NCBI RefSeq assembly: GCF_008086345.1
Contig: NZ_CP043006.1
Coordinates: forward strand, 1,486,032-1,550,031
DNA from: Chitinophaga sp. XS-30
Lineage (GTDB): Bacteria; Bacteroidota; Bacteroidia; Chitinophagales; Chitinophagaceae
Direction of reading: 5' to 3'
Length of the DNA stretch: 64,000 nt
How positions within the stretch are numbered: the first letter of the stretch is position 1; every line of letters starts with the position of its first letter. The notes beneath the pieces were generated by a model, which did no database searches, was not told where the DNA came from, and was given only the letters and a program-made list of their open reading frames with translations. Position numbers and translations under genes: made by a program. This document shows, in pieces, positions 54,185-64,000 of this stretch.

Positions 54185-55189
54185 TTATATGAAGAGGTCT
54201 ACAATGAAATACACCCCTGCTGCCAGCAATGCGCTGATGGGAATAGTGAGTATCCATGCCCAGAGCAGGTTCACGGTAACGCCCCAGCGAACGGCGGAGA
54301 GCCTTTTGGTAGCACCCACCCCGATGATGGCGCCGGTAATAGTATGGGTGGTGCTCACGGGGATACCAAAGCTTTCCGTGAGGTAGAGGGTAACAGCACC
54401 GGCTGTTTCCGCGCTCACACCTTCCAGCGGGGTTACCTTGGTGATGCGGGTGCCCATGGTTTTCACGATCTTCCAGCCACCGCTGAGCGTACCCAGGCCT
54501 ATGGCGATAAAGCAGGAGAAAGGCACCCAGTCCGGTACGTCCTTCAGATTGCCGATGCTGCCCTGAGCCACCATGGCCGCTGCAATGATACCCATCACTT
54601 TCTGGGCATCGTTACCGCCGTGACCGAGACTGAAGGCCGCTGAAGACACCAGCTGCAGACGTTTGAACCAGCTTTCCGCCCGGTAGGGATTGCCTTTTTT
54701 ACAGATGTTCACGATCAGCACGGTGATCACAAAGGCTACCACCATGCCTATAAAAGGAGCCAGTACAATGAAATATACGGTAGGCAATACTTTGGCGTAG
54801 TTGATCACATCGAAAGACCCGCCGGCATTGGCTACAGCTGCCCCGATGAATCCTCCGATCAGGGTATGGGAGGAGCTGGAGGGGATGCCGTACCACCAGG
54901 TCAGCAGGTTCCAGGAAATGGCCGCGATCAGGCCGGAAAAGATCACTTTAAGGGTGATAAACTGTTCAAATACGGACTTGGCAATGGTATTGCCCACCTT
55001 GAATTCGCCATAAATATACTTGGACACAAAAAAGGCCGCAAAATTGAAGAGGGCCGCCCACAATACCGCCTGGAAGGGTGTGAGCACCTTGGTAGACACG
55101 ATGGTGGCAATAGAATTGGCTGCATCATGAAAACCGTTGATATAATCAAAAATAAAGGCCAGGATTATAATAACAACAAGAAAGACCAT
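54185..55189 (-). CDS. Inorganic phosphate transporter, PiT family
   Basis: A 334-residue inner-membrane protein with about ten hydrophobic segments. The PiT signatures are duplicated: FDYINGFHDAANSIATIVSTKVL near residue 13 and the second-half GAIIGVGATKRLSAVRWG near residue 287, with SSHTLIGGFIGAA and STTHTITGAI as the two Ser-rich re-entrant segments. It imports phosphate (often as a metal complex) at low affinity. It lies 22 bases downstream of the DUF47 gene, a conserved partner. A strong terminator follows. Confidence 0.95.
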   Translation of the reverse strand: MVFLVVIIILAFIFDYINGFHDAANSIATIVSTKVLTPFQAVLWAALFNFAAFFVSKYIYGEFKVGNTIAKSVFEQFITLKVIFSGLIAAISWNLLTWWYGIPSSSSHTLIGGFIGAAVANAGGSFDVINYAKVLPTVYFIVLAPFIGMVVAFVITVLIVNICKKGNPYRAESWFKRLQLVSSAAFSLGHGGNDAQKVMGIIAAAMVAQGSIGNLKDVPDWVPFSCFIAIGLGTLSGGWKIVKTMGTRITKVTPLEGVSAETAGAVTLYLTESFGIPVSTTHTITGAIIGVGATKRLSAVRWGVTVNLLWAWILTIPISALLAAGVYFIVDLFI

Positions 55190-55211
55190 GAGAAGGATAA
55201 ATTAGGCTGCA

Positions 55212-55862
55212 CTAAGCATATTTGATGATAATGGTTTCTATCACATTGGCGGAATCTTCGCACTTGTCGGTAGCGATTTCCAGCGCCTGATAGATCTCGC
55301 GCATCTTGATCAGCTCTACAGCATTGCTTTCCTGGTCGAACAGATCGGCGATGGCACGGTCATAAATATCATCCGCATGATTCTCGAGGCTGTTGATCTT
55401 TACACAGGCATCGGTGATCACGCGCATATTGCTCATATTGCGCAGTTCCGGAATGGCCCGGGCCAGCTCCTGTACGCCCTGATTGATCAGGTCCGCCAGC
55501 TTGCGCACACTGTCATTGATATTGGTCACCTTGTACATGTCTATACGTTTGGCGGAACCATGTATGTAGTCTGCCACATCATCCAGCGTGGAGGCCAGGT
55601 AGTGGATGTCTTCCCGGTCAAAGGGAGTAATGAAGTTCTGCCCCAATTCTACGAAGATACGGTGCGTATAATCATCGTTCTTGTGCTCCAGCCGCTCGAT
55701 CAGGTGCACTTTGTCCTTACGGATATCCATGTCTTTTGTCTCCACCAGTTCCACCAGCACTTTGCCCATTTCCACAAGATTCGCCGCCACATCCTCAAAT
55801 AAGGAATAAAATACCCGGTCTTTAGGCATGAACAGTTTAACAATAGAATTAAAGCCTCCCAT
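55212..55862 (-). CDS. DUF47 (PhoU-like) Pit accessory protein
   Basis: A 216-residue soluble all-helical protein of the DUF47/YkaA family, related to PhoU, with YLASTLDDVADYIHGSAKR near residue 83 and KINSLENHADDIYDRAIADLF near residue 152. These E/DxxxD-rich helices bind metals in PhoU-like proteins. The family almost always accompanies PiT transporters and probably regulates them. A perfect -7 box, TAATTTTG, lies on the minus strand at 55901-55894, about 30 bases before ATG 55862. Confidence 0.92.
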   Translation of the reverse strand: MGGFNSIVKLFMPKDRVFYSLFEDVAANLVEMGKVLVELVETKDMDIRKDKVHLIERLEHKNDDYTHRIFVELGQNFITPFDREDIHYLASTLDDVADYIHGSAKRIDMYKVTNINDSVRKLADLINQGVQELARAIPELRNMSNMRVITDACVKINSLENHADDIYDRAIADLFDQESNAVELIKMREIYQALEIATDKCEDSANVIETIIIKYA

Positions 55863-55938: not shown

Positions 55939-55977
55939 TTAATAATTACTTAACACTGAGTTAATATAAAAGTAATA
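55939..55977 (+). promoter_or_regulatory. Four-hexamer operator array upstream of the PlcP/LpxH-like gene
   Basis: TTAATA (55939), TTAACA (55950), TTAATA (55961) and GTAATA (55972) are spaced exactly 11 bases start to start. The last ends nine bases before a -7-like box TTTCTTTG (55987-55994). An 11-base direct-repeat period is typical of PhoB/PhoP response regulators. The array points toward the plus-strand gene, not toward DUF47-pit. Confidence 0.6.
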
Positions 55978-56016
55978 TAGTCATTTTTTCTTTGCATACG
56001 AACCGAAGGTCTGAAA

Positions 56017-56850
56017 ATGTCCGAAAAACGCCCATTAGATATAGTCGTAATCTCCGATGTTCACCTTGGGATCTACGGCTGTCACGCAAAAGAGCTTGTA
56101 AACTACTTGGACAGCATAGATCCGCGGATCCTCGTTCTGAACGGGGATATCATCGATATCTGGCAGTTCAGCAAGCGCTTCTTCCCTAAATCCCATACCA
56201 AAGTGATCCGCCGCATCCTGAAAATGATCGGCAAAGGCACGGAAGTCTATTACCTCACCGGCAATCACGACGAAGCCCTTCGTAAATACGCAGGCTTCGG
56301 GCTCAGCAATTTTGTGATCGATAACAAGCTCATCCTGGATGTGGACGGCAAACGGCACTGGTTCTTTCACGGGGACGTGTACGATGTGACCATGAAAAAT
56401 TCCAAATGGCTGGCCAAGCTGGGTGGAAAAGGATACGATCTGCTTATTATCCTGAACCGCCTGGTGAACCATATGCTGGAAAAAATGGGCAGGGAGAAGA
56501 TGTCTTTCTCCAAAAAAGTGAAGGAAAGTGTAAAGCAGGCCGTTAAGTTCATTTCCGATTTTGAGCAGACCGTTGTGGAAATAGCCGTAGATAAACAGTT
56601 CGATGTGGTTTGCTGCGGTCATATTCACCAGCCGGTCATCAAGGAAATGAGCAGCAATGGTAAAACTGTAACGTACCTCAATTCCGGCGACTGGGTGGAA
56701 AGCCTTACCGCTCTGGAATACATGCAGGGGGAATGGAAGCTTTACCAACACCCGGCTTCATCCGTCAAAACCGTGATACCGGAAGAGGAAGAAGAGACCA
56801 TTGCCCTCGAATGGGCAGCGTCCCGCGTCATTTCTTTCCCCGGAAGCTGA
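56017..56850 (+). CDS. Metallophosphoesterase, LpxH-like / PlcP-like
   Basis: A 277-residue calcineurin-like phosphoesterase with the full dinuclear metal set: DVHLG near residue 14, GDIIDIW near residue 44, GNHDE near residue 80, HGDVYD near residue 112 and GHIHQP near residue 208. Databases usually call this family UDP-2,3-diacylglucosamine diphosphatase. The long middle part (NRLVNHMLEKMGREKMSFS, VKQAVKFISDFEQ) and the ending NSGDWVESLTALEY look to me more like PlcP, the phospholipase used in phosphate-starvation lipid remodelling, than compact LpxH. The operator array upstream and the nearby phosphate transporter favour that. Either role remains possible. Confidence 0.75.
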   Translation: MSEKRPLDIVVISDVHLGIYGCHAKELVNYLDSIDPRILVLNGDIIDIWQFSKRFFPKSHTKVIRRILKMIGKGTEVYYLTGNHDEALRKYAGFGLSNFVIDNKLILDVDGKRHWFFHGDVYDVTMKNSKWLAKLGGKGYDLLIILNRLVNHMLEKMGREKMSFSKKVKESVKQAVKFISDFEQTVVEIAVDKQFDVVCCGHIHQPVIKEMSSNGKTVTYLNSGDWVESLTALEYMQGEWKLYQHPASSVKTVIPEEEEETIALEWAASRVISFPGS

Positions 56851-57006
56851 AGATCATGTCTGGCCTTTTAATGAACATTTCATGTAATAACTACTGCTCT
56901 GAGCTTGCCTGTCGCCGGCATTCGTGCCAGTTCAGGAAGAGTGCGATGTAACCGCAGTCAATTCGTTATTTGCCAATTTGTTAAAAAAAACCTTATTCAT
57001 AATTAC

Positions 57007-57051
57007 ATAACCTGCTGGTAATATTTAATTAACCAAGCCATTGTAAGTTTG
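57007..57051 (+). promoter_or_regulatory. Operator array and promoter of the 131-residue protein
   Basis: ATAACC (57007), GTAATA (57018) and TTAACC (57029) keep an 11-base period; a weaker TTCATA at 56996 is in phase. The last hexamer ends nine bases before a perfect TAnnTTTG box, TAAGTTTG at 57044-57051, the same spacing as at 55939 and 62296. Confidence 0.5.
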
Positions 57052-57071
57052 GGGAACCAGTAAGAAAATTG

Positions 57072-57467
57072 ATGAAGACGCTCAAGTTACATCCATTAAT
57101 GACCATCTCCCTATTGCAGATGCAGATCCAGCGGCTACTCCATTGCAATGTTGCGGTGTATATCCGGCATTCCCCGGGTAATGCCTTCAATACCCTGCGC
57201 GATGCCGGCCTGGAAGAAGAAATGATGGTGGAGCACCCGATCGATGAAACACTCAGTCTCCGGGAATTTGAAGAAGAGGTGGAAGAGAAGTTCAATTTTT
57301 CGATGGAGTTGTGCAACAAGGATTCCAAACCATTTACCAATAAAAGCCTGCGCCTTTTTCAGATCACTCCCTGCAGTGAGGAAGAAGGAGGGCGGCAGCT
57401 GGATATTTCGCTGGAACTGCTGGCCAGGCAGGGCAGGCATGGTAACCAGCAGAACCGTGCGGTATAG
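57072..57467 (+). CDS. Hypothetical protein, possibly phosphate-regulated
   Basis: A 131-residue protein of no family I recognise. It lacks a signal peptide and membrane segments. It has two parts: residues about 10-60 mix beta and helix (ISLLQMQIQRLLHCNVAVYIRH), and an acidic stretch (LSLREFEEEVEEKFNFSMELC, near residues 62-82) precedes a basic tail. The start is ATG at 57072; a TTG three bases earlier is not needed. Its promoter carries the 11-base hexamer array also found before neighbouring genes, so it may belong to the same regulon. Confidence 0.6.
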   Translation: MKTLKLHPLMTISLLQMQIQRLLHCNVAVYIRHSPGNAFNTLRDAGLEEEMMVEHPIDETLSLREFEEEVEEKFNFSMELCNKDSKPFTNKSLRLFQITPCSEEEGGRQLDISLELLARQGRHGNQQNRAV

Positions 57468-57513
57468 ATGCATTGTATGTTAACCTGTTTTTTTCTCTTT
57501 CGCCTTCTCTTTG

Positions 57514-57541
57514 GTAACAATTATTTAATACACAGTTAACA
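57514..57541 (+). promoter_or_regulatory. Operator array upstream of the beta-helix lipoprotein gene
   Basis: GTAACA (57514), TTAATA (57525) and TTAACA (57536) are 11 bases apart; ATAAAA at 57547 continues the phase weakly. Only a poor -7 match (AACAATTG) lies nine bases downstream. A better -33/-7 pair, TTG at 57670 and TTTCTTTG at 57690-57697, is nearer the gene. Confidence 0.45.
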
Positions 57542-57715
57542 TTGCGATAAAACAATTGGATTATTGCTCCCCGTTCGATGTTTTTCAAGTGAATATATCA
57601 TTACCGGAATTCCTCCCTAAATCAATCCTGTAGCGGATTCTTAATAATTCCTTAATACGCTTTTTGCCCTTGCTCCGGGATGTTATCTGTTTCTTTGCAC
57701 AAACAAAGTTTTGTT

Positions 57716-59185
57716 ATGATTACTGCTAAGAATTTTCTCTCAATCCTGACATTGTCTGCTGTTGTTACAGGCATGTACGCTTGTAAAAATGACGATAACC
57801 CTAAGCCGACACCGGAAGACAAACATCCTTATGCTGACATGATCGTTGACAATGGAGTGATCCTCTACGAACCGATCAAAGGCGGGCGCCTGCTGTCCAA
57901 TGACTCCGTATATTATCTTGATGGATATGTTTTCGTAGAAAGCGGCGAGCTTAAGATCGAAGCTGGTACGGTGATCATGGGTTTTGAAAATCCTTCTTCT
58001 GTTGCTGAAGGAAATGAAACATCACTTATCATTACCCGTAATGCAACGATCAATGCAGCCGGTACAAAAGAGAACCCCATCGTTTTCACTTCTGAAAAAG
58101 ACCAGGAAGCCCTGGGTGGTACACCCAATCTGGGCCCGACCAACTCTAAACTCTGGGCTGGAGTGATCATTCTGGGTAAAGCTCCGGTATTCGCCGGCGG
58201 CGCCACCGAATTGCAGATCGAAGGTATTCCTGACGGGGAAGCCCGTGCGTTATATGGTGGCACAGAATCTGCGCATAGCTCCGGTATCCTGAAATATGTT
58301 TCTATCCGTTTCACCGGAGCCGAGATCGGTCCTGGCGACGAAATTCAGGGTCTTACACTGGGTGGCGTAGGTAGCGGTACAACTATTGAAGATATCGACA
58401 TTTTTGTATCTGCAGATGATGGCATCGAAATTTTTGGCGGTACCGTGAACATCAAACGTGTAAGCGTTGCATTCGCAGAAGACGATTCTTTCGACTTCGA
58501 CCTCGGCTGGTCAGGTTTTGGTCAGCACCTGTTCACATTGCAGAACAACGACAATTCCGATTTCCTTGGCGAGTGGGATGGTGCTGATCCCGATGATGCC
58601 ACTCTCTACACTACCGCCCGTATCTATAACTGGACGGCGATTGGCCAGGGTGCTGCAGGAACGCGTGATGACGGATTCTCCGCACTGGTGATCCGTGATG
58701 GTGGTGCACTGTCTATCTACAACAGTATTCTGACCGACTTTAACGGTAAAGGTATTGAAATAGAAGACCGCGGCGAAGGCTTTGATTCCTATAGCAAATA
58801 CATGGCAGGTGAAAACAAGATCACCGGCAACATCTGGTACGGTCACGGAGCAACTTCCATCCTGGATATGGTGGTACCGACCACTGCAAGCGGTTTTACA
58901 CCTGCTGATCCGACTGGTGCTACCATCGGTGCAAAACTGACCACTGACAACAATGTATTTGTAAATCCGCAGCTCAAAGGTATTTCCCGTACCAACGGCA
59001 GCGCAGGCCTGGACCCCCGTCCGGATGCCGCCGCCGCAACAACCAATGTAGCAACAATACTGGCTGCCGATCTGGCCAATGGTGCTGTTCAGACCAACTA
59101 CAAAGGTGCATTCGACCCCGCCGGCGATGGCACTACCTGGTTAGCAGACTGGTCTACCCTGGCAAGGTTCGGTTACCTGAAATAA
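57716..59185 (+). CDS. Secreted right-handed beta-helix-type lipoprotein
   Basis: A 489-residue lipoprotein (signal 1-22, lipobox MYAC then KNDDNPKPTPED linker). The mature part has short repeated turns such as LIITRNATINAAGTKENPIVFTS, GGVGSGTTIEDIDIFVSADDGIEIFGG and NIKRVSVAFAEDDSFD, typical of parallel beta-helix surface proteins. Codons are strongly biased to GGT, CGT and ACT compared with neighbours, suggesting high expression. It precedes the TonB-dependent receptor gene, but a terminator separates them. It could be a surface ligand-binding partner of the receptor; no enzymatic motif is seen. Confidence 0.75.
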   Translation: MITAKNFLSILTLSAVVTGMYACKNDDNPKPTPEDKHPYADMIVDNGVILYEPIKGGRLLSNDSVYYLDGYVFVESGELKIEAGTVIMGFENPSSVAEGNETSLIITRNATINAAGTKENPIVFTSEKDQEALGGTPNLGPTNSKLWAGVIILGKAPVFAGGATELQIEGIPDGEARALYGGTESAHSSGILKYVSIRFTGAEIGPGDEIQGLTLGGVGSGTTIEDIDIFVSADDGIEIFGGTVNIKRVSVAFAEDDSFDFDLGWSGFGQHLFTLQNNDNSDFLGEWDGADPDDATLYTTARIYNWTAIGQGAAGTRDDGFSALVIRDGGALSIYNSILTDFNGKGIEIEDRGEGFDSYSKYMAGENKITGNIWYGHGATSILDMVVPTTASGFTPADPTGATIGAKLTTDNNVFVNPQLKGISRTNGSAGLDPRPDAAAATTNVATILAADLANGAVQTNYKGAFDPAGDGTTWLADWSTLARFGYLK

Positions 59186-59201
59186 TTCAATATATCACAA
59201 T

Positions 59202-59238
59202 GAAAAAAAGGAGGCATTCAGCGAGCTTCCTTTTTTTC
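59202..59238 (+). terminator. Terminator between the beta-helix lipoprotein and TonB-receptor genes
   Basis: GAAAAAAAGGAGG pairs with CTTCCTTTTTTTC (13 bp, one G-U pair) around an 11-base loop; the T-run is inside the right arm. Confidence 0.8.
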
Positions 59239-59311
59239 ATTGGTAGTCAAATGATGTAACAGCAAGTTTTATAGTATATACACAAGTTTTATCTGTGTAA
59301 TTCAAACAGCC

Positions 59312-62227
59312 ATGAGATATATTTTTACAGCGTTATTTTTATTGACCCTCATACCGGCCGCAATGGCACAGGTAGGCACTGTTTCGGGCACTGTGGTAGA
59401 TGGAGAGAATGGGGACCTGCTCATAGGGGTGAATATCCGCGTTAAACAGACCAACGGCGGCGCCGTTACCGGCATTGATGGCAAGTATAACCTGAAATTG
59501 CCTCCCGGTAAATACACACTCGAATTCTCTTATGTTTCCTACCAGTCCAAACTGGTAGAGCAGCTGGATGTTAAATCAGGCGGACTGACCAGCCTGGATA
59601 TTGCGCTTTCCCAAAAATCGGTAGACCTGCAGCAGGTGGTTATCACTGCCAGTGCTATTGATAATAGTGAAGTATCTGTTTTACGGCTTCAGAAAAACTC
59701 CCTGTCTGTTCAGGATGGCATTTCCTCCCAGGAAATCGCCAAGATCGGCTTCAGCAATTCCGCTGAATCCATGAAACGGGTGACCGGGGCCTCCGTAGAA
59801 GGCGGCAAGTTCATTGTTATGCGCGGGCTTGGCGACCGTTACAGTATTTCACAGATGGATGGCATGTCCCTGCCCAGTACAGACCCCTATCGCAATAGTG
59901 CGAGTATGGACCTCATCCCCTCTACAATGGTGGACAACATCGTTGTAAAAAAGACATTTACGCCGGACCTTCCGGGAAACTTCACTGGCGGCGCGGTAGA
60001 TATTACTACCAAATCCCTGCCTGACCGTTTTTACCTGAATGTCTCCGCTTCTGTTGGCATAAATGATCAGGCTACTTTCAATAACAATTTCCTGTCCGAT
60101 CCCATCAAAGGGAAAACAGATTGGCTGGGTTTTGACGATGGCTCCCGGAAACGCCCGGACCTGGCCCGCAATAATCCCTATATGACCAGTCTGGGTAGTA
60201 CGATTGCGAATATTCAGAACAATCCGGACAACCAGCAGCTCATCAATGACTTCAATACATCGATGCGGGTATTTGCTGACCGGCCATATTCCGTTTCAGC
60301 AGGTTCTCCTGGCCTCAACAGAAGCCTTAACCTGGCTACCGGCAACCGCTTCAAGACGGCGAACGGAAATGCTTTCGGGTTTAACCTCGGCTTGAATTAC
60401 CAGCACGATAACAGGTTCTACGACAACCGTTCCATTAACAACTATAAGGCAAACATCTCCAGTGAGAACAGGATGCAGCGTTTTCTTTACAGTTCGGGAT
60501 CGGAAAGCCAGTCTACTGCCACTGTCGGAGGGATCGCTTCGGCAGCCTATCAGTTTGGCAAGAATGAAGTAGGCGTTAGCGCCATTTATAATAATACCGG
60601 AGACCAATCTGTGCTGAACCTGGATAAAGGGTCTTTCCCCGGCGCGCTTTCCTCAGGGGAGTATCGCAACAGGGTGATCGGCTTTCAGCAGCGCAGTTTA
60701 TTGAATACGCAGCTGAAAGGCAAGCATATGGCATCCTTCTTCGGAGAAACCAAGATAGAATGGGCCGCCAACTATATACTTTCCAGCCAGTATGAACCGG
60801 ACCTGCGTTTCCTGGGTGCACCGGTTACCACCGCAGGCACCTATTATTTTGTTCGCGAAGTGCCCAATCCTTTCCATTTCTTCCGTGATCTGAAAGACAA
60901 TCAATATATGGGGAAACTGGACCTGACCAGTACCCTCAAAAAATTCACGTTGAAGTATGGCGGGTTCATCAGCAGGAAGGAACGTGATTTTACGGAATAC
61001 CGCTACCAGTTGTCCACCACCGGCACCAACCCGGCTGATGCGGAGTATCTGAGTTTCGGCGAGGCCGGCGGCGATTTTGACCGTTTCTTTAGTGCAGGCA
61101 ATACCGGCGTACTGGGCAAAAGCGGATCACAGGCCATTTTTGGGAACTCTTATGAAGATCAAACCCAGCCTTCCAATCTGTATGAAGGATACGAGCAGGT
61201 GATGGCCGCATATCTGATGGGAACGTTCAATATCACCCCGAAGTTGAAAACCGTGGTGGGTGCAAGGATAGAAACTACAGATTATGAAGTGGCTGTGAAA
61301 TCGAGCAACAAAGCTCCCGGCAAGATCGATGCGCTCGATGTATTGCCCTCCCTCAACTTTATCTATGCGTTAAACGATAAAACCAATCTCCGTCTTAGCG
61401 GCAGCCGTACCTTAGCGCGCCCTAACATGCGGGAAATGGCGCCGTTCATTTCGTTCGATCTGCTGGGTGGATTTCCTATCGTGGGCAACCCGGACATTGA
61501 AAGGACCAATATTACCAATGTGGATTTCCGCTATGAACTGTTCCCGAAATCGGACGAACTGTTTGCAGTCAGCCTCTTCTACAAGAATTTCCAGAATCCG
61601 ATCGTTACAGAATTAGACGCAACCTCCGATCAGCCGCAGTACAAGTACGTAAACAGTGAGCAAGCCAATCTCGCGGGCGCCGAAATAGAATTCAGAAAAG
61701 GGCTTGCTTTCATCGATCCGGCCATGAAGAATTTCAAATTTGGTGTAAACTTCACGTACATATATTCCAGGGTGAGGTTGCGGCCGGAGGAATATGAGAT
61801 CCGTAAAGTGGTAGATCCTGAACTGAAGAACTGGCGTCCGTTCGCGGCACAGTCCCCGTACATATTCAATCTGTTGTTATCTTATGATCAGAAAGAAAAG
61901 GGTTGGGAATCCACCGTGTTTGCCAACCTGTTCGGCCCCAGGCTTTCTGCCAACGGCGCCGGTGCAGCTCCGGATGTTTATGAGGTGTTTGGCCGCCTGA
62001 AAGATAAAGCGGAAAACAGGCTCAAGAATAATGTTCCCGTTCCGGAGCTGAACTTCCGGATCAGGAAGCAATTCAAAAGCCACTTCTCTGTTGCATTGAA
62101 TGTGAATAATATTCTCGATTACGATGTGGTGAACTACCAGGAGCATAATGGAGAATATTTCACGACACAAAGTTATAACCCGGGCAGGGTCTATAAACTG
62201 ACACTAGGGTACTCTATCAGCAGGTAA
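59312..62227 (+). CDS. TonB-dependent outer-membrane receptor
   Basis: A 971-residue outer-membrane transporter. A signal peptide (residues 1-19) is followed by a carboxypeptidase-regulatory-like domain (GTVSGTVVDGENGDLLIGVNI to about residue 100), a plug domain (VIMRGLGDRYSISQMDGMSLP region near residue 168; VDNIVVKKTFTPDLPGNFTGGAVDI near residue 209), and a large beta-barrel ending in KLTLGYSISR. It should import a scarce ligand using TonB energy. No SusD partner follows; the preceding beta-helix lipoprotein may play that part. The MRGLGDRYS plug motif is shared by a subgroup without known substrate. Confidence 0.94.
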   Translation: MRYIFTALFLLTLIPAAMAQVGTVSGTVVDGENGDLLIGVNIRVKQTNGGAVTGIDGKYNLKLPPGKYTLEFSYVSYQSKLVEQLDVKSGGLTSLDIALSQKSVDLQQVVITASAIDNSEVSVLRLQKNSLSVQDGISSQEIAKIGFSNSAESMKRVTGASVEGGKFIVMRGLGDRYSISQMDGMSLPSTDPYRNSASMDLIPSTMVDNIVVKKTFTPDLPGNFTGGAVDITTKSLPDRFYLNVSASVGINDQATFNNNFLSDPIKGKTDWLGFDDGSRKRPDLARNNPYMTSLGSTIANIQNNPDNQQLINDFNTSMRVFADRPYSVSAGSPGLNRSLNLATGNRFKTANGNAFGFNLGLNYQHDNRFYDNRSINNYKANISSENRMQRFLYSSGSESQSTATVGGIASAAYQFGKNEVGVSAIYNNTGDQSVLNLDKGSFPGALSSGEYRNRVIGFQQRSLLNTQLKGKHMASFFGETKIEWAANYILSSQYEPDLRFLGAPVTTAGTYYFVREVPNPFHFFRDLKDNQYMGKLDLTSTLKKFTLKYGGFISRKERDFTEYRYQLSTTGTNPADAEYLSFGEAGGDFDRFFSAGNTGVLGKSGSQAIFGNSYEDQTQPSNLYEGYEQVMAAYLMGTFNITPKLKTVVGARIETTDYEVAVKSSNKAPGKIDALDVLPSLNFIYALNDKTNLRLSGSRTLARPNMREMAPFISFDLLGGFPIVGNPDIERTNITNVDFRYELFPKSDELFAVSLFYKNFQNPIVTELDATSDQPQYKYVNSEQANLAGAEIEFRKGLAFIDPAMKNFKFGVNFTYIYSRVRLRPEEYEIRKVVDPELKNWRPFAAQSPYIFNLLLSYDQKEKGWESTVFANLFGPRLSANGAGAAPDVYEVFGRLKDKAENRLKNNVPVPELNFRIRKQFKSHFSVALNVNNILDYDVVNYQEHNGEYFTTQSYNPGRVYKLTLGYSISR

Positions 62228-62253
62228 TTCCTGATTTTGTCAATAATTGTTTC

Positions 62254-62290
62254 GCAAAGGGCCGTTTCCGCAAGGGAACGGCCGCTTTGT
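62254..62290 (+). terminator. Terminator of the TonB-receptor gene
   Basis: GCAAAG plus GGCCGTTTCC pairs with GGGAACGGCC plus CTTTGT (one G-U pair and one bulge), followed by TTTG. The T-run is weak. Confidence 0.65.
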
Positions 62291-62295
62291 TTGAA

Positions 62296-62340
62296 TTAAC
62301 AATAGCTTAATGATGTGGTAATATTACCTGTGTATATTTC
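62296..62340 (+). promoter_or_regulatory. Operator array and promoter of the M57 peptidase gene
   Basis: TTAACA (62296), TTAATG (62307) and GTAATA (62318) keep an 11-base period. The last hexamer ends nine bases before TATATTTC (62333-62340), which differs from TAnnTTTG only at the last base. The geometry equals that at 55939 and 57007. Confidence 0.52.
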
Positions 62341-62409: not shown

Positions 62410-63513
62410 ATGAAAATGTTAAAACCCTTTCTGCTTCTTTGCTCGATCCTGTTTATTATCTCCTGCCGGAAAGAGGTGGCCCCTGAACAGTCTGCCGTCA
62501 GCGAAAGCACTCAGTCCCGCGTGAACCCCGAACACCTGCAGGCCGCCTGGCTGCTCGGCTTTGATACGGTCGGTGCCCGTTACCTCAACGACGGACTGCT
62601 GGTAGGCGGAGACGTATTGATGGATAAACAGTACCTTGAAAATTTACTGAAGGCTTACAAGGCCTCTTCAGCTAACGAGCGGCATGCCCATACGGCAAAC
62701 CTCGTAACAGGAAACAATACCAATATCACAGTCAGCCTTCAGGATAATCTGATCAACACCTATTCTGTTGTACTTGCTTTGCAGGGAGCGCTGAGTCATC
62801 TGAATGCAGTCAGTGACTGCCGGCTGAATTTCATGTATGCTTCCAATGATGCAAATGCGGATATCAAAATATACAGGTCTTATGATTTCAACAGTTATGC
62901 CTACGCATTCTGGCCTACCGGAAACGGGCAGCCAGGCAGCAAGGTCTATTTTAATCTGGACCTGGCCAATGGCAGAACGCAAGGGCAAAATATACTGCTT
63001 TTTGTTCATGAGATCGGTCACTGCCTTGGCCTGAGACACGCGGACTGGGACAATATCGGCGAACCTGTAGCAGCCTATGACGATGACTGGACGTATGGCG
63101 GGGCGACCTATATTCCAGGAACACCCACGTACGATGCCAGTTCGGTCATGAATCATGATATCGGTATCCTCGGCCTGTCATGGTCTTCCTTTTCCACCTA
63201 TGATATTGTGGCACTGCGTTATCTGTATCCATTGGAAACAGGAACAGTATTCGAAAGCTATATCAATGGCCCTGTGAACATCAGCCAGGCAGGGCAGCAC
63301 AACCATTCAAACGGCGCTGCGTACAGCTGTGGCAACTACGAATGGCGTTTATTGAATGCCAGTGCCCAGGTCATTTACGATTTTTGGGATGAAGAGTGCG
63401 GCGGGCTGGAATGGAGTAATATCCTTTCGCCGGGAACCTATTACCTGGAAGCCCGGCTGAAGAATACGGAGGCGCCGGGAGTGTGGTATTCCAAAGCCGT
63501 AAACGTTCAATAA
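62410..63513 (+). CDS. M57 (HEIGH-type) metalloprotease lipoprotein
   Basis: A 367-residue protein with a lipoprotein signal (FIISC near residue 19). The catalytic zinc motif HEIGHCLGLRH at residues 200-210, with Asp two residues on, is the metzincin pattern, and a following SSVMNHDIG near residue 245 looks like the Met-turn. Together these match Peptidase_M57. The last 90 residues (SYINGPVNISQAGQHNHSNG and on) look like a beta-sandwich. It would act on the cell surface or in the periplasm. Its promoter carries the 11-base hexamer array, linking it to the neighbouring putative phosphate regulon. Confidence 0.88.
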   Translation: MKMLKPFLLLCSILFIISCRKEVAPEQSAVSESTQSRVNPEHLQAAWLLGFDTVGARYLNDGLLVGGDVLMDKQYLENLLKAYKASSANERHAHTANLVTGNNTNITVSLQDNLINTYSVVLALQGALSHLNAVSDCRLNFMYASNDANADIKIYRSYDFNSYAYAFWPTGNGQPGSKVYFNLDLANGRTQGQNILLFVHEIGHCLGLRHADWDNIGEPVAAYDDDWTYGGATYIPGTPTYDASSVMNHDIGILGLSWSSFSTYDIVALRYLYPLETGTVFESYINGPVNISQAGQHNHSNGAAYSCGNYEWRLLNASAQVIYDFWDEECGGLEWSNILSPGTYYLEARLKNTEAPGVWYSKAVNVQ

Positions 63514-63615: not shown

Positions 63616-64000
63616 ATGATCCGAATCAGGCAAGTTGCATTGACTGTTTTTTTTATATGTTTTGCTTTTTCCGCCCGGGCACAGTTCCTGATGGATATGA
63701 TAGATACCACTACCGCATTGGGAAAGGGCATGATAGCCATGTACCAGAATTACGACCATCTCCGCATCAGCGGGTATATGCAACCGCAGTACCAGTACTC
63801 CACCGGAAAGGGTATGGGAGACTACCAGGGCGGGGCTATGGCGCCGGAATCGGATAACCGTTTCATGTTCCGCAGGGGCCGTATCCGCTTTGACTATGCA
63901 CACTACAACAAAAAGAACCTGCCTACCGTACAGTTCGTATTCCAGTTCGACGGAACGGAGCGGGGCGTGAATATCCGTGACTTCTGGGGACGTTTTTTTG
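63616..64000 (+). CDS. OprO/OprP-like porin (partial, runs off the window)
   Basis: The first 128 codons of an outer-membrane protein, open to the window end. It has a signal peptide (MIRIRQVALTVFFICFAFSA, then RAQ), then ISGYMQPQYQYS near residue 51, FMFRRGRIRFDYAHYN near residue 83 and FVFQFDGTERGVNIRDFWGR near residue 107. This is the start of the phosphate-selective porin O/P family found in Bacteroidota. ATG at 63616 is chosen because it gives a proper signal peptide; an ATG at 63606 is in another frame and leads to a short unlikely peptide. Substrate preference (phosphate or polyphosphate) is a family inference. Confidence 0.85.
   Translation, partial: MIRIRQVALTVFFICFAFSARAQFLMDMIDTTTALGKGMIAMYQNYDHLRISGYMQPQYQYSTGKGMGDYQGGAMAPESDNRFMFRRGRIRFDYAHYNKKNLPTVQFVFQFDGTERGVNIRDFWGRFF

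Follow-up and report, generated by a model that had tools for sequence, protein, structure and literature searches.

Hexamer arrays with an 11-nucleotide period, lying upstream of several genes in the stretch of DNA analysed here, are very probably (roughly 90%) the operator, or Pho box, of a PhoB-type response regulator in its Bacteroidota form. The whole stretch, 64 kb in length, is referred to as the window. In Bacteroidota, promoters are built of a -33 and a -7 element, and the -7 box has the form TAnnTTTG. An earlier reading made from the letters alone (the sequence-only reading) proposed a phosphate-starvation operator, and this proposal is supported by the genes that carry the arrays in relatives and by a PhoR/PhoB-like pair adjoining the cluster; from these we infer that PhoB binds the arrays, activates transcription and responds to phosphate there. 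With the repeat, its period and its spacing from the -7 box defined, phosphate-starvation genes would become predictable from sequence across soil, marine and gut Bacteroidota. The operator also suggests a likely regulator for outer-membrane systems and small proteins of unknown function, such as a 131-residue family found in the window, and, in a genome in which neither Pst nor PhoU was found, it indicates a phosphate regulon.

Arrays and genes of the window

Three arrays, each ending nine nucleotides before a -7 box, had been described upstream of a plcP-like gene, the gene of the 131-residue protein and an M57 protease gene, and inspection of the sequence confirmed all of them (Table 1). 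In the first array the hexamers, in register from 55939, are TTAATA, TTAACA, TTAATA and GTAATA, the last ending at 55977. The array at 57514-57541 and the hexamer pair at 57641-57657 are additional to these three sites. When KTAAYA was sought three times at an 11-nt period over the whole window and both strands, with at least 16 of the 18 positions matching, six matches were obtained at four places (55939, 57514, 57630 and 62296), all of them intergenic, on the forward strand and within 6.4 kb. The 57007 array, with 15 of 18 positions, falls under this threshold and is recovered by a matrix. When the other periods between 6 and 30 were tried, matches in the window came from just two of them, 22 (one match) and 27 (two matches). 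First-order Markov resampling of the six intergenic stretches reached six matches in 0 of 2000 trials (mean 0.0075), and the matrix, trained on other genera, placed the three sites at ranks 1 to 3 over the 64 kb and both strands (62296, 20.9; 55950, 20.5; 57007, 18.4). The earlier statement that such constant phase and spacing is not random therefore holds.

Table 1. Predicted operators, -7 boxes and genes in and around the array cluster (window positions)
Feature	Position	Strand	Description	Basis
Operator 1, predicted Pho-box type	55939..55977	+	four hexamers, 11-nt period, before plcP-like gene	sequence
-7 box TTTCTTTG	55987..55994	+	9 nt past last hexamer of operator 1	sequence
Operator 2, predicted Pho-box type	57007..57034	+	three hexamers, weaker fourth at 56996, before 131-aa gene	matrix
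-7 box TAAGTTTG	57044..57051	+	9 nt past 57007-57034 array	sequence
Further array	57514..57541	+	three hexamers, 11-nt period, poor -7 box, 5' of lipoprotein gene	matrix score 16.6
Two-hexamer pair TTAATA N5 TTAATA	57641..57657	+	32 nt before TTTCTTTG at 57690, distal register	sequence
Operator 3, predicted Pho-box type	62296..62323	+	three hexamers, before M57 protease gene	matrix
-7 box TATATTTC	62333..62340	+	9 nt past 62296-62323 array	sequence
Pit-type phosphate transporter	54185..55189	-		Pfam PF01384
DUF47 (PhoU_div) protein	55212..55862	-	divergent from plcP-like gene	Pfam PF01865
Calcineurin-like phosphoesterase, PlcP-like	56017..56850	+		Pfam PF00149
131-aa protein, function unknown	57072..57467	+		family-less in Pfam and NCBIfam
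Lipoprotein-like exported protein	57716..59185	+		relative of ORF beside phoB-divergent receptor, Flavobacterium panici
TonB-dependent receptor	59312..62227	+		Pfam PF00593 and PF13715
M57-family metalloprotease	62410..63513	+		Pfam PF12388
OprO/P-like porin	63616..64000	+	cut by window end; complete in L055:148-1467	Pfam PF07396, 21.7 bits vs cut-off 20.9

The first gene served had been called a PlcP/LpxH-like esterase. A PlcP-like phosphoesterase of the calcineurin type (PF00149) it is, but its scores against LpxH models lie far under the cut-offs (51.6 bits vs 134 in NCBIfam, and 43 vs 190). Searches of Pfam and NCBIfam gave no match for the 131-residue protein, relatives of which occur in 6 of 117 genomes of the family, its own included; we know of no phosphate role for this protein or for the M57 protease. 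In genomes G014 and G113 (loci L359 and L360) the 131-residue gene lies just 5' of a 410-residue ORF, near a PstS-family gene, and an array with a 9-nt gap (scores 14.8 and 13.2) stands at the start of that ORF. The lipoprotein-like protein resembles the corresponding ORF of F. panici (locus L250; blastp, 31.5% over 260 residues), its label being taken from likeness to the lipoprotein Fjoh_0546; the frame opens at 57680, has no Pfam family, and its start was taken as 57716. The receptor matches the ORF divergent from phoB at the same F. panici locus (27% over 971 residues, E 6e-77). The Pit and DUF47 genes (54185-55862) are both divergent from the plcP-like gene with operator 1, and ORFs matching them in size and order occur in the two same-genus genomes, G106 and G006. 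The genome itself gave no PhoU match, no PstB above the cut-off and no PstC match at E 1e-30, so that no classical pst target was found in it.

Conservation of the arrays and their targets in relatives

Counting distant matches, 116 of the 117 genomes in the family hold a relative of the PlcP-like phosphoesterase. The training set of the matrix consisted of 24 plcP promoters from other genera, and each site was modelled as three hexamers followed, after 9 nt, by the -7 box. Scored by leave-one-out, 26 of 30 plcP loci, among them the window and the two same-genus genomes, reached at least 13.4, and 24 exceeded 14.44, the maximum of 3000 shuffles; L081 (14.4, at the edge of that maximum) was counted as not above it. 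The four loci under 13.4 are L063, L074, L079 and L085, the last counted as a miss although it was scanned at a wrong offset, its contig ending near the gene. Scores drop outside the family: in a phylum-wide plcP set 12 of 30 loci exceeded 14.4, six of the 30 being of the same family (one of them the window), which leaves 8 of 24 beyond it, and in a second phylum set the figure was 6 of 20, including L213, a doubtful site at -385. In these two sets the highest-scoring site, strong or weak, fell between -55 and -75 relative to the match start at 15 of 30 loci and at 15 of 20, respectively. In G106 and G006 arrays scoring 14.2 to 27.7 are kept at the promoters of plcP and of the relatives of the 131-residue protein, the receptor and the lipoprotein, as expected of an operator preserved in close relatives, but for the M57 gene no counterpart was identified in either genome. 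In G106 the receptor relative (L168:9711-12517) is broken up into two ORFs, one of 335 and one of 600 residues, whether in reality or by sequencing error.

Period and gap were examined separately. With the gap left free, the mean best three-hexamer sum over 60 plcP upstream regions (58 genomes, the own genome and G031 being counted twice) was 12.99 at period 11, compared with 3.9-5.7 at periods 7-10 and 12-16, and TTTG stood at gap 9 in 18 of 32 arrays, at gap 20 in four and at gaps 7, 10 and 19 in one, two and one, a result that is partly circular because part of this set trained the hexamer model. Outside the training set, 68 upstream regions of Flavobacteriaceae gave 13.34 at period 11 against 5.5-8.7 at the other periods; of the 36 arrays, 21 had gap 9, and none had any other gap between 0 and 30. 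When the region and the threshold were changed slightly and the arrays counted again, gap 9 was found in 25 of 48, with one or two each at 1, 10, 20, 28 and 31, and a spread beyond 38.

The sequence-only reading expected the matrix to find pstS, phoX and PhoB-type genes, and this was for the most part borne out, with some genes of each kind carrying the pattern. With the plcP-trained matrix, 10 of 30 PstS-family loci of the family score over 14.4 and L103 reaches 13.2; the matches at L099, L102, L103, L111, L119 and L123-L127 lie before an ORF of 395 to 454 residues that precedes the PstS match, and that at L106 directly before the PstS match. PstS and PstC are both above their cut-offs in the two loci tested for both (L099 and L124), PstS in L102 and PstC in L119. 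The other 20 loci are under 14.4, and longer stretches taken for ten of these and for one further locus held no 14.4 match before the binding-protein gene. Of 30 PstC loci taken from across the phylum, two attain 14.4, and in one of these the match is downstream of pstC. Most pst operons examined thus lack the array, and pst as a universal target was rejected. Among 15 PhoX loci, of which L329 and L343 are one gene, five exceed 14.4 (L331, L332, L333, L337 and L339) and L330 reaches 11.4; nothing was found just before the gene in four of the eight strong PhoX loci. At phoB itself the repeats occur in a more distant register, described below.

The large ORF that diverges from phoB is a further probable target. 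Scanning with PhoB of a Flavobacterium yielded at least 586 loci, of which the best 80, of Flavobacteriaceae type, were taken as named loci. In 44 of these 80 an ORF of at least 700 residues diverges from phoB, and 39 of the 44 have an operator above the 99% null of 8.8; the box lies 17-29 nt before the divergent ORF in 31 of the 39. If every divergent ORF is counted, 45 of 73 are above the 99% null, seven of the 80 loci having none. The identification of the divergent ORF as a TonB receptor was checked by comparison for L250. ORFs cover about 89% of the 80 loci; 86 matches score at least 14.4, and 79 of them have an ORF on the correct strand starting no more than 150 nt downstream; six fall inside ORFs. 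An array is also present at the OprP gene in two relatives.

Several of these genes respond to phosphate in Flavobacterium johnsoniae, where low phosphate raised the log2 level of the TonB-dependent receptor Fjoh_0545 by 8.0, the lipoprotein Fjoh_0546 by 9.9, PlcP (Fjoh_4577) by 8.6, PhoX (Fjoh_2478) by 12.5 and PhoB (Fjoh_0544) by 3.1, while OprP was not induced (-1.3, not significant) (PMC8115612). Among the phoBR-operon rows of that study, the glycosyltransferase, PhoB, the receptor and two lipoproteins are induced and OprP and PhoR are not, and the ECF sigma and FecR genes of its PUS clusters were likewise induced by low phosphate (PMC8115612). F. johnsoniae is absent from the 80 named loci, and the link to its expression data is therefore made through syntenic and homologous genes of F. 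panici, F. hibernum and relatives.

Regulator, candidate regulon and rival readings

Beyond the window end follow the OprO/P-like porin, a small ORF, a histidine kinase and an OmpR-type regulator. The regulator, which lies at C1:1552695-1553408, 2.7 kb past the end and beside the porin and the PhoR-like kinase, is the best match in the genome to the PhoB model TIGR02154, at a score under the curated cut-offs (220 vs 296.2 for TIGR02154, 207.2 vs 270 for NF053854), as is that of the kinase against PhoR models (224 vs 334 and 166 vs 500). The domains are those of a receiver and winged-helix regulator next to a PhoR-like kinase (PF00072, PF00486, HisKA and HATPase), and the kinase shares 46% identity over 292 residues with the one beside phoB in F. 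panici (L250). The stretch RTIDVHIRK, which we take to be the recognition helix, is identical in all 12 aligned PhoB orthologues, which come from this family and from Flavobacterium; the nine paralogues of the own genome that were aligned have other residues there.

When phosphate is short, the neighbouring PhoR-like kinase would phosphorylate the PhoB-like regulator, whose DNA-binding domains would then sit head to tail on the array, one to each TTAAYA/GTAACA hexamer and each 11-nt turn of the helix. With 9 nt between the end of the array and the -7 box, bound PhoB would take the place of the Bacteroidota -33 element, and from there it may recruit RNA polymerase.

Across the 6.18-Mb genome, a first scan with up to two mismatches found the pattern 33 times, compared with 13 times for the reversed control; at most one mismatch was present in 11 of the 33, including four in the window cluster. 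A second scan gave 64 against 41 for the reversed pattern. Loci were drawn for 30 of these 64. Apart from the window sites, matrix scores of at least 15 came from sites ahead of a SusC-type receptor (249961), of an ECF gene (1777436) and of two clusters, one with ECF sigma, FecR, SusCD and a metallophosphoesterase (2554286) and the other with ECF, FecR and a receptor (4435920), as well as at a TPR protein (5238151), where the site overlaps the ORF start. The cluster at C1:2554286 (L159:1287-12001) has an ECF sigma gene, FecR, a large ORF, SusD, DUF4959/DUF5000, DUF4998 and the metallophosphoesterase behind one operator, and it resembles the low-phosphate PUS clusters of F. johnsoniae. At L043 (C1:3957063) the pattern match is a short tandem repeat, ACAGTACTTTA, and is probably unrelated to the operator. 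Hits before unrelated genes had been named as evidence against a phosphate operator; in the own genome some matches do precede genes with no evident phosphate link.

Three other explanations of the arrays were weighed. A different OmpR-family regulator with TTAAC specificity, for instance one of an envelope or redox type, is an improbable occupant, even with 12 full-length OmpR/PhoB-type matches in the genome and with the example of PhoP in Riemerella anatipestifer, for which 583 DAP-seq peaks and a motif with a conserved TTTAACA, judged ArcA-like, are described in a paper whose main text has neither 'pst' nor 'Pho box' (PMC9603813). Against this, phosphate genes are frequent among the targets (plcP, some pst and phoX, the phoB-linked receptor), and the PhoB orthologue adjoins the cluster and has repeats in its promoter in the six genomes of the family examined. 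Its presumed recognition-helix stretch is, moreover, conserved across two families and is not that of the aligned paralogues.

Plain AT-rich upstream promoter elements, or intrinsically bent and helically phased DNA with no specific regulator, would account for repeats that are AT-rich and in phase with the helix. Phasing alone, however, would not explain why two families keep the sequence of the hexamer, its 11-nt register and a gap of 9 nt, nor would it select phosphate genes, and shuffled promoters stay under the observed scores; this explanation was rejected on the conservation of the register in the two families and is very unlikely. A chance pattern in AT-rich DNA can be given next to no weight. 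Many matches of the second genome scan are probably of this kind, as its high control count suggests, but the window cluster is a different matter: there chance is refuted by the resampling, the shuffles and the cross-genus ranking, and the excess over the control in the first scan and the conservation in relatives speak against it as well. A Pho box bound by PhoB remains the preferred reading.

A second, distal register is seen at the phoB promoters of the six family genomes examined (the own genome, G006, G106, G055, G114 and G067), where TTAACA N5 ATAATG or TTAATA stands 31 or 32 nt before a TTTG box, that is, at 9 nt plus two helical turns. The own phoB promoter, past the window at L055:3910-4155, has two hexamers 31 nt before its -7 box. 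The gap is also 31 in two pst loci of g108, the genus to which G280 belongs; the PhoB proteins of G280 and Flavobacterium potami are identical. The TTTG box was chosen by hand for each locus, and at the threshold used a recognisable array was found in 4 of 79 phoB promoters of Flavobacteriaceae; the distal register is for both reasons a lead and not a test. Speculatively, and with more doubt than confidence, one may suppose that PhoB works from two fixed helical registers for a graded output, gap 9 serving strong effector genes and gap 31-32 serving phoB, the lipoprotein gene and some pst operons, and that the regulon of this genome, in which no Pst or PhoU was found, also switches on ECF sigma/FecR cascades for outer-membrane complexes that take up phosphorus while Pit and DUF47 take over the phosphate-sensing role of PstB and PhoU towards PhoR. 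With neither Pst nor PhoU found, phosphate sensing by PhoR becomes a direct question here.

Comparison with known phosphate operators

The operators of Bacillus PhoP and cyanobacterial SphR consist of TTAACA-like or TTAAC-like repeats with 11-nt spacing; they differ in belonging to other phyla with other core promoters. The arrays have the sequence properties of a Pho box in that they hold two or more direct repeats at an 11-nt period, at a preferred distance directly 5' of a predicted core promoter (gap 9 in 18/32 and 21/36 arrays), and stand before phosphate-starvation genes, namely plcP, some pst and phoX genes and phoB-linked receptors, although not before all pst or phoX genes. The E. coli-type repeat CTGTCAT is absent from the window arrays, which consist of TTAAYA/GTAAYA. 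With the E. coli PhoB operator they share 11-nt direct repeats, phosphate-gene promoters and, as proposed here, a head-to-tail regulator of the OmpR type, and the Pho box consensus is known to vary by species (PMC4415409). The differences are that TTAAYA/GTAACA takes the place of CTGTCAT, often with three or more repeats, and that the repeats are set against a -7 box TAnnTTTG with a preferred gap of 9 nt, or of 31-32 nt at phoB.

Within Bacteroidota, a search of the open-access literature, with most subscription papers and supplements outside its scope, found no published Pho box consensus. Putative Pho boxes have been reported in plcP clusters, with no consensus in the part of the paper available (PMC4796936). 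PhoB of Bacteroides fragilis, also a member of the phylum, binds the pst promoter by EMSA, the available text giving neither a consensus nor a register (PMC3547664). Riemerella anatipestifer PhoP is likewise a Bacteroidota regulator, with TTTAACA as the most conserved letters of its motif, but it is reported as ArcA-like and tied to virulence and aerotolerance, and no phosphate promoter register is given in the available text (PMC9603813). A further parallel is the low-phosphate regulon of F. johnsoniae, which shares phoBR beside OprP, a TonB receptor and a lipoprotein, a PlcP, and PUS clusters in which ECF sigma, FecR and SusCD genes occur with phosphoesterases (PMC8115612). The terms 'Pho box' and 'promoter' are absent from the main text of that study, to which the present analysis adds the operator (PMC8115612).
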